44,705 nt of DNA. Source: an uncultured Lachnospiraceae bacterium (GTDB lineage: Bacteria; Bacillota; Clostridia; Lachnospirales; Lachnospiraceae). The stretch's first letter is position 1; each line of letters opens with the position of its first letter. The position numbers were made by a program, and so were the translations under genes. The stretch spans positions 1 through 44,705 of the forward strand of contig CAMJAP010000016.1 of the NCBI GenBank assembly GCA_946403625.1, written 5' to 3'. This document shows, one piece after another, positions 3 through 2,491 of the stretch. The notes beneath the pieces were generated by a model. It worked only from the letters and a program-made list of their open reading frames with translations, did no database searches and was not told the DNA's origin.

Positions 3-194
3 AAGAAAGCAACTGCAGCAAAGAAGACTACTGCAAAGGCTACAACCGCAAAGAAAGCAACTGCAGCAAAGAAGACTACTGCAAAGGCTACAACCGCAAA
101 GAAGGCAACTACAGCAAAGAAGACTACTGCAAAAGCTACAACTGCTAAGAAAGCAACTGTAGCAAAGAAGCCGGCAGCTAAAAAAGCTACGACT
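3..194 (+). repeat. 48-bp in-frame tandem repeat, about four copies
   Basis: Units lie at 3-50, 51-98, 99-146 and 147-194. The first two are identical over all 48 bases, the third differs at a few positions and the fourth is degenerate in its second half. Each encodes a 16-residue [20 protein letters not shown] block. The array probably continues upstream of the window. Identical units suggest recent copy-number change by slippage or recombination. Confidence 0.85.
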
Positions 195-218
195 ACAAAA
201 AAAAAGACAACGAACTAA
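3..218 (+). CDS. Lys/Ala/Thr-rich repeat tail of a protein truncated at the window edge
   Basis: The frame starting at base 3 is open from the window edge to TAA at 216-218 and encodes almost only Lys, Ala and Thr, with KK pairs spaced by Ala/Thr runs, ending in KKKTTN. Such tails occur on bacterial histone H1-like and HU-type proteins and probably bind nucleic acid or another polyanion; that role is inferred from composition. The N-terminus lies outside the window, so the folded part is unknown. The frame stops inside the region where glycogen phosphorylase homology begins in the -1 frame. It may therefore be either a separate basic protein or the N-terminal extension of the phosphorylase. 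Confidence 0.6.
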
Positions 219-225
219 ATAGTTC
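197..225 (+). promoter_or_regulatory. Putative -1 ribosomal frameshift site (A9 run plus small hairpin)
   Basis: Bases 197-205 are nine A followed by G. In the Lys-rich frame this reads AAA AAA AAG and contains the heptamer A AAA AAG (200-206), the same slip sequence used in E. coli dnaX. After a 5-nt spacer, GAACT (212-216) can pair with AGTTC (221-225) across a 4-nt loop. This is a short 5-bp stem and therefore weak. A -1 slip continues at GAC (206) into the phosphorylase frame. A single-base homopolymer error in the assembly would give the same picture. Confidence 0.4.
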
Positions 226-295
226 TCTTCAGAAACTCGAAGCAGTTTGTGAGGGTTTATTAAACAAATCATTAAAGAAGTGCAACGATCGTGAA

Positions 296-2491
296 TTGTA
301 TCGTGCACTTCTTTTATTTACCAAAAAAGAATTATCGGATCGTCCGCAGATCAAGGGAAAGAAAAAGATCTATTATATCTCCGCCGAATTTTTGATCGGA
401 AAACTCCTCTCCAACAATCTGATCAATTTGGGAATTTACGATGAATTAAAAGAAGGACTGGCAGCAATCGGTAAGGATTTGAGCAAGATCGAAGAGATCG
501 AGCAGGAACCGTCTCTGGGAAACGGCGGTCTGGGGCGTCTTGCCGCATGTTTTATCGATTCGATCGCGACATTGAATCTGCCGGGAGACGGCATCGGACT
601 CAATTATCATTACGGCCTGTTTCAGCAGGTGTTTAAGAAAAATAAGCAGACGGCAGAAAAGAATGCATGGATCGATGAGAACTGCTGGCTGAACAAAACG
701 AATACCAAGTTTAAAGTATATTTCGGAAAGACCGCAGTAACCTCCAGACTGTATGATATTGATGTGGTCGGCTATCATAAGGGGATCAACAAGCTGCATT
801 TGTTTGATCTCGAAAGTATTGATGAAAGTCTGGTACAGAAGGGAATTGATTTTGATAAGGAAAAGATCAAAAAGAACCTGACACTGTTTTTGTATCCGGA
901 TGATTCCGACGATGCCGGCCGTATCCTGCGCATCTATCAGCAGTATTTTATGGTCAGCAGCGGTGCGCAGCTGATCATCAAAGAGATGAAGGAAAAAGGT
1001 TATGACCTGCACAAACTGTATAAGCATGCAGTGATCCAGATCAATGATACCCATCCGACCATGGTCATTCCGGAACTGATCCGTATTTTTACAGAGCAGG
1101 AAGGATTTTCCATGGACGAAGCGATCAAGGTGGTGAGCAAGACCTGTGCGTATACCAATCACACGATCCTTGCAGAAGCTTTGGAAAAATGGCCGATCGC
1201 ATTTTTGAAAAAAGCAGTACCGCAGTTGATCCCGATCATTGAAGAATTAAATCGTCGTGTGATGGCGAAGTACAAGAATCCGAAGGTGTGGATCATTGAC
1301 GAGGAACAGCGTGTACATATGGCGCATATCGATATCCATTACGGATTCTCGGTAAACGGTGTGGCGGCATTGCATACGGAGATTTTGAAGAATACGGAAC
1401 TGAATGACTTCTACAAGATCTATCCGAAGAAATTTAACAACAAGACAAACGGCATTACCTTCCGTCGTTGGTTGTTATCCTGCAACCACGACCTGGCCGA
1501 TTGCATCACGGATCTGATCGGGGACGGTTTTAAGGAAGATGCGAATGAGCTGCAGAAACTGCTGCAGTATAAAGAGGATCCGAAGGTATTAAAACGGATC
1601 GAAGCGATCAAGAAACAGAAGAAACTGGAACTGTGTGCGTACATTAAAAAAGCAGAGGGTGTAGAACTGGATCCGGAAAGCATTTTCGACATTCAGATCA
1701 AGCGTATGCATGAATATAAGCGCCAGCAGATGAATGCACTCTACATCATTCACAAGTATCTGGAGATCAAGAAGGGAAAGAAGCCGGGCAGACCGATCAG
1801 TTTTATCTTCGGAGCCAAGGCGGCGCCGGCATATGTGATCGCGCAGGATATCATCCATCTGCTCCTGGTATTGCAAAAGATCGTGAATAATGATCCGGAA
1901 GTAAACAAGTATATGAAGATCGTATTCGTAGAGAACTATAATGTTTCGTATGCGGAGAAACTGATCCCGGCTTGCGATATTTCCGAGCAGATCTCACTGG
2001 CAAGCCAGGAAGCATCCGGTACCGGTAACATGAAATTTATGTTGAACGGTGCGGTAACGCTGGGAACCGATGACGGTGCAAATGTGGAGATCCACGATCT
2101 GGTCGGCGATGACAACATCTTTATCTTCGGTAAGAAATCGGATGAAGTGTTGAGACTGCGTGAAAACTACAATGCGGATTATCATGCGGATCAAATCTAT
2201 GCAAATGATGCGGTGGTTAAGGAAGCGGTAGATTTCATTATCGATCCGAAGGTGTTGAAGATCGGCGATAAAGTATGTCTTAAGAGATTGTACAACGAGA
2301 TCGTCAGCAAAGACTGGTTTATGGGACTGTTGGATCTGCGTGATTATATTAAAGTCAAAGATCAGGCGTTTAAGGCATTTGAGAGCCGCAAGAAGTGGCG
2401 GCAGATGATGCTGGTAAACATCGCGATGGCAGGATACTTCTCCTCCGATCGTACGATCGCGGATTACAACAGGGATATCTGGAAACTGTGA
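296..2491 (+). CDS. glgP: Glycogen/maltodextrin phosphorylase
   Basis: Cytoplasmic PLP-dependent GT35 enzyme releasing glucose 1-phosphate from glycogen or maltodextrins. The sequence shows the N-terminal [17 protein letters not shown] and [14 protein letters not shown] motifs, the [11 protein letters not shown] segment, the INDTHP and NGITFRRWL motifs, and the PLP site [10 protein letters not shown] near the C-terminus. The first possible start is TTG at 296, which has no ribosome binding site and removes a conserved N-terminal helix. Family-like sequence ([11 protein letters not shown] through [17 protein letters not shown]) extends upstream in the same frame to about 206, yet 182-295 contains no ATG, GTG, TTG or CTG codon. 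The true protein may thus be a fusion with the Lys-rich frame by a -1 slip. Annotated conservatively from TTG; family identity is certain, the start is not. Confidence 0.9.

Follow-up and report, generated by a model that had tools for sequence, protein, structure and literature searches.

A conserved A9G junction between a Lys/Ala/Thr-rich reading frame and a start-less glycogen phosphorylase frame in Lachnospiraceae, a candidate site of programmed recoding

Described recoding sites and the layout of the locus

Ribosomal frameshifting of the dnaX type in the −1 direction is stimulated by an SD-like element upstream of the slip sequence and by a hairpin a few nucleotides downstream of it. Among bacterial genes expressed by recoding, those of insertion sequences, prfB, and dnaX are the best known (PMC3711429; PMC1088944). 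In Thermus thermophilus dnaX, an A9 run within a chromosomal coding region gives two products per gene in an organism with a separate tRNA-Lys for AAG (PMC1088944; PMC5009743); the slippage is transcriptional, and section 21 of PMC5009743 suggests that the two Lys tRNAs may explain this. In Shigella mxiE, two frames are joined solely by slippage on a homopolymer, which is needed for the longer product (PMC1088944). In E. coli dnaX, the heptamer A_AAA_AAG is in phase and the shift is in the −1 direction.

The window analysed here is the whole of contig C16 (44,705 nucleotides) of a 3.52-Mb Lachnospiraceae genome (G000 among the compared genomes) and opens at the contig end, within the repeats of a Lys/Ala/Thr-rich open reading frame (KAT) of histone H1-like composition. 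The 3' part of KAT occupies 3..218 (+) and ends at the zero-frame stop TAA 216-218, and the frame of a glycogen/alpha-glucan phosphorylase (GlgP) covers 206..2491 (+) in the −1 phase relative to KAT, followed by an ORF starting at 2632 which we take to be malQ-like. The putative slip site A9G lies at 197..206 (+) and is read ACA AAA AAA AAG in the zero frame, with A9 at 197-205 and A_AAA_AAG at 200-206. Both the heptamer within an A9 run and the overlap of a Lys-rich frame, ending at 218, with the phosphorylase frame had been described in a first-pass annotation and were confirmed. KAT starts close to the end of contig C38, with an ATG at L002:1249 behind GGAGG; the final 49 bases of that contig are identical to the 49 with which the window opens, and the KAT frames agree across the join. 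As KAT repeats stand at contig ends (window 1-190, the end of L002, and the start of L121), the length that the assembly gives for KAT in the window's genome is uncertain. The same genome encodes elsewhere (L008, contig C151) a second protein of KAT type, small (~70 aa) and with a charged and coil-like C-terminal part.

The locus shares with Thermus dnaX the A9 in a chromosomal coding region, two (here predicted) products per gene, and a separate tRNA-Lys for AAG; whereas the unslipped reading yields the longer protein in Thermus, slippage would be needed for the longer protein at KAT-GlgP and would join two unlike proteins. It shares that need with mxiE, in which a T run and a regulator take the place of the A run, the histone-like arm, and the metabolic enzyme. 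The heptamer in phase and the −1 direction are as in E. coli dnaX, but KAT-GlgP has no conserved stimulator at the usual distance, neither an SD-like element nor a stem-loop, and its stop is in the zero frame. On sequence grounds, recoding on an A run, in itself an established phenomenon, would occur here in a gene and protein of a new type, joining a histone-like arm to a glycogen enzyme. Programmed frameshifting together with glycogen phosphorylase was not found in the literature searched, nor were glycogen, histone-like, Lachnospiraceae, and frameshift in combination, nor a Lys-rich N-terminal extension of a bacterial glycogen phosphorylase; the main text of PMC3711429 makes no mention of phosphorylase, glycogen, or histone, and the first 300,000 characters of PMC5009743 none of glycogen or phosphorylase. 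Recoding would be the sole route to a central-metabolism phosphorylase, and what it would add is the histone-like arm. The arrangement suggests that annotation is likely to shorten such a phosphorylase or to label it broken.

The start-less frame and its junction in relatives

The region upstream of glgP was examined in 32 of the 35 genomes of the genus (all but G006, G007, and G033; in G032 and G017, the second copies were left out). Besides the window's genome, KAT directly precedes or is fused to GlgP in RGIG5994 (G032, sheep omasum), RGIG9247 (G017, water deer rumen), RGIG6658 (G021, sheep rumen), Tb.RUG.144 (G012), RUI469 (G024), and RGIG4848 (G009, roe deer rumen). These seven members, all MAGs (the congeners are titled Lachnospiraceae), form one clade with support 100/100, in which G012/G024 are sister to the others; the tree included a partial row for L119. 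A comparison of the slip site in relatives, called for by the first-pass annotation, located A9G at the same place in all six start-less loci (window, G032, G017, G021, G012, and G024). In each of them GlgP is open in the −1 frame after KAT, the zero-frame stop follows 0 or 3 codons past the slip site, and the KAT ORF ends GCA AAA AAA AAG, with ACA instead of GCA in the window. The earlier proposal of a −1 shift at A9G that joins the Lys-rich frame to GlgP is supported by these loci. In G009, an ATG preceded by GGAGG opens a single frame that covers KAT and continues into GlgP; since KAT and GlgP are here fused directly in frame, the fusion protein is a natural product. Most simply, by parsimony, the slip arrangement would be ancestral and the plain fusion of G009 derived. 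Among sister species outside the clade, KAT in G016 is a separate ORF that ends at a stop of its own and is followed by a spacer with a 12-bp hairpin and by the SD and ATG of glgP, and short basic in-frame GlgP arms are present in G014 (isolate NC2008) and G023 (N-terminus identical to that of UBA1748); the other congeners examined had no KAT ORF upstream of glgP and an ATG near the expected start. Sixty of 80 loci were classed, nine of them as clade members (6), short-arm kin (2), and separate-KAT kin (1); the remaining 51 had no KAT stretch above 0.6, and neither had any of 27 loci examined from other genera (the family search matched 204 of 397 genomes).

The GlgP frame is full length and free of internal stops and matches TIGR02093 over its full length with 908.4 bits (cut-off 552.9). 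The catalytic protein is the same as in ordinary Lachnospiraceae GlgP (TIGR02093), from which that of the window differs by the absent start codon and the long basic arm. As had been read from the letters beforehand, codons 182-295 hold no ATG, GTG, TTG, or CTG, the first being TTG 296. That glgP is expressed without recoding, from a non-standard start codon or by reinitiation past the KAT stop, is improbable: the KAT stop is close to the glgP frame, TTG 296 exists, and the GlgP frame has ATT at codon 6 and CTG at codon 8 after the slip in G021 and ATT at codon 12 in G024, but no start codon is common to the loci (first ATG/GTG/TTG at codons 31, 31, 31, 23, 34, and 34 of the six start-less frames; CTG at the position of TTG 296 in G021, G012, and G024). 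Furthermore, a start at 296 would lose residues 17-30, which are encoded 5' of it and align with solved phosphorylases, and would leave both the conservation of A9 and the fusion in G009 unexplained.

Lys codons in the six KAT ORFs, excluding the last three codons, are 251 AAG vs 33 AAA (33/284), and only 2 of 105 Lys-Lys pairs are coded AAAAAA, yet AAA-AAA-AAG stands at the junction in 6/6; AAGAAGAAG is a synonymous form of the A9 run. In the 3.52-Mb genome, A9G occurs at two sites on both strands together, one of which is this junction, and the corresponding counts in G000, G032, G017, G021, G012, G024, and G009 are 2, 7, 7, 16, 5, 2, and 5; no clear rule of context was seen in nine regions viewed around other A9G sites. 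Four of the 16 sites of G021 are on its contig C105 (L213, L230, L234, and L238), which carries a dense tRNA array (12-13 per 3-kb locus, Lys ttt and ctt included) and may be a phage or plasmid contig.

In the five congeneric MAGs that keep A9G, GlgP differs by up to 22%, with synonymous sites near saturation. After TTG 296, dN is 0.02-0.04 and dS 0.66-1.01 within subclade A, and dS is 1.20 in subclade B and 2.4-4.1 or not computable between A and B. Substitution is faster in the residues encoded before TTG 296 than in the remainder of the protein (dN 0.03-0.39 within A and 0.57-0.80 between A and B), so that purifying selection there is not clear for close pairs. The six start-less species are related and hence do not represent six independent trials, the A/B split amounting to two long lineages. 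The first-pass annotation had considered an error or a length variant (A9/A10) to fit equally well, with which the six MAGs, all A9, do not agree. Phase variation, raised there as well, would switch the DNA run between A9 (off) and A10 (on), the assemblies having caught the off state; a homopolymer at a gene junction is what it would use, but the assemblies have A9 in six of six species and A8 or A10 in none, which makes it quite improbable. An artefact of sequencing or assembly, or decay of the gene, is highly improbable: the window starts in repeats at the end of a contig and its relatives are MAGs, but the same state recurs in six MAGs whose names belong to at least three series (RGIG, RUG, and RUI), and GlgP runs to full length with no stop and is under purifying selection 3' of TTG 296.

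Transcriptional or ribosomal slippage

By comparison of the loci, the slip site and a hairpin downstream of it are conserved, the phosphorylase frame is start-less, and the fusion is in frame in one species. We lean towards a programmed recoding site that yields free KAT and KAT-GlgP by a slip more likely transcriptional than ribosomal. KAT would be translated from its own ATG and would mostly end at TAA 216-218, so that the main product would be a free basic protein of histone-like character. A net −1 shift at A9 would arise by RNA polymerase adding an A (A10 messages) more probably than by ribosomes slipping on A_AAA_AAG, and reading would then continue into glgP to give a basic arm (~140-220 residues in species with a complete KAT ORF) followed by the full phosphorylase. 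Because the GlgP frame has no start, the phosphorylase would be made solely in the armed form. As each of the seven clade genomes has a second phosphorylase match (44-47% identical; partial in G032 and G012), the armed enzyme appears to be a special form.

A homopolymer of ~9 A or T at the frame junction, conserved in orthologues, is a feature of transcriptional slippage, and A9G stands there in 6/6. Slippage of the polymerase is also favoured because A9 is present where A_AAA_AAG needs A6, because an SD-like element is not shared and no significant fold was found in GlgP codons 1-20 (z −0.3 to −1.9 at the slip loci), and because of a separate tRNA-Lys-CUU; we infer that transcription rather than translation is the slipping step, and of the two it is the likelier. 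Upstream of the slip site, the best matches to AGGAGG reach 3, 3, 4, 3, 5, and 4 of 6 positions in G000, G032, G017, G021, G012, and G024. The tRNA-Lys-CUU was called in G000, G021, G009, and G012 and matched at 99-100% in G017 and G024, and its best identity in G032 was 77%; tRNA-Lys-UUU was seen in G021, G009, and G014, with none among the scanned loci of G000, an incomplete MAG.

The same points bear on dnaX-like programmed −1 ribosomal frameshifting at A_AAA_AAG, in which the ribosome would slip to give the same fusion product and which is a possible, though distinctly less probable, reading. The heptamer is in phase with a −1 direction in 6/6, in E. coli the sequence A_AAA_AAG has a strong tendency to shift (PMC5009743), and G012 carries AGAAGG 10 nt 5' of the A run. 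In section 10 of PMC3711429, a direction varying among orthologues is a criterion of transcriptional slippage, and a constant −1 with an in-phase heptamer fits ribosomal frameshifting; here the direction is −1 in 6/6 orthologues without variation, a weak test given their small number. Against ribosomal slippage, no SD-like element upstream and no nearby structure downstream is shared, A6 would suffice, and most species have a separate tRNA-Lys-CUU. Of the dnaX-like signal described in the first-pass annotation, the slip heptamer stands and the stimulator is not supported: the 5-bp hairpin GAACT-AAAT-AGTTC is present in the window, its bases are changed in relatives, and no SD-like element is shared. 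The hairpin described below (H2) is an unlikely stimulator at 59-67 nt from the slip.

The hairpin within glgP and the basic arm

Hairpin H2 lies inside the glgP frame at 274..314 (+), with −18.7 kcal/mol in the window and a U-rich 3' side (CTTCTTTTATTT, 310..321 (+), at and past the 3' arm and overlapping the outer stem). It is present in 7/7 clade members at −17.6 to −21.8 kcal/mol with codon-shuffle z values of −1.9 to −4.1, which are optimistic because the choice of the tested stretch followed the sighting of H2 in these genomes; H2-like folds at z −1.9 or lower occur in 2/23 other congeners (G020 −3.4, G029 −2.0). The outer 9-bp helix pairs in 63/63 cells in the clade vs 75% of cells in eight outgroup rows. 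Covariation is thin, with one compensatory pair and three wobble changes, and of 500 shuffles 242 have at least as many pairs with both sides changed and 13 at least as high a covariation score. The window has no Rfam match at gathering scores, and its positions 1-600 none at E 1. H2 begins at a distance past the slip that would suit a terminator of the KAT message and may act as its terminator or attenuator, ending or damping that message; we infer this role, since the consensus scan lists neither H2 nor the hairpin of G016. The latter (L121 255-360) is followed by ACTTTT between the separate KAT ORF and the ATG-started glgP and is possibly a KAT terminator.

In GlgP residues 8-40, the synonymous difference is 0.04, 0.04, 0.20, 0.21, 0.00, and 0.21 for six A pairs and 0.00 for the B pair (overall 0.27-0.36). 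It is below half of the overall value in 4/7 slip-species pairs and mildly reduced in the three with G021 (0.20-0.21 vs 0.29-0.33), and the four pairs that include G009 show less constraint (0.29-0.35 vs 0.38-0.41 overall). Hairpin H2 accounts for part of this low difference. A general constraint at the glgP 5' end was considered and rejected: among 17 congener pairs whose members are not both in the fusion clade, one falls below half of its overall value (G026/G003, 0.00 vs 0.14), with milder drops in G008/G026 and G008/G003 (0.17 vs 0.30-0.31) and in G015/G018 (0.10 vs 0.17). The constraint on residues 8-40 in the slip species is suggestive, not clean. Residues 50-80 (~window 356-445) also have few synonymous differences in slip-species pairs (0.03-0.20), and are low in congeners without KAT as well, e.g., G018/G022 (0.00) and G011/G022 (0.03).

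A further scheme, slippage-gated attenuation, is rather unlikely: H2 would be a leaky terminator of the KAT message, located inside glgP, that ribosomes in the slipped frame keep open, and the armed enzyme would couple glycogen breakdown to the nucleoid. As only slipped-frame messages would carry ribosomes across H2, one A run would govern both the frame that is read and whether the phosphorylase is transcribed.

The KAT ORF is 140-220 aa long where complete, strongly basic, and 92-96% K/A/T/P, and thus histone H1-like in composition. It resembles HC2 (PF07382) weakly and in the window species alone, where the gathering cut-off of 40 is not reached (18.3 bits for the part in the window and 17.4 bits for that in L002); the five other KAT ORFs had no HC2 match at E 0.01. 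Lys/Ala-rich disordered tails on storage-polymer proteins are described for the phasin PhaF and for AlgP (PMC3574117; PMC9239181). Those tails are C-terminal and serve PHA and polyphosphate, whereas the KAT arm is N-terminal, belongs to a glycogen enzyme, and would be joined by recoding; its DNA binding is putative. By analogy with PhaF and AlgP, the arm may bind DNA, RNA, or another polyanion and keep the enzyme, and perhaps glycogen with it, near the nucleoid; a tether formed by the basic arm was also proposed in the first-pass annotation, and RNA or polyphosphate would be an equally plausible partner. Should the arm bind DNA, a Lys/Ala-rich tail would tie glycogen to the nucleoid, as for the storage polymers PHA (PhaF) and polyphosphate (AlgP). 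Among the other loci, phosphorylase frames are open for 1269-1446 aa in G074:C10, G397:C1, and G302:C85, and at L108 the frame is open 1557 nt upstream with malQ-like sequence; these long frames are possible in-frame MalQ-GlgP fusions.
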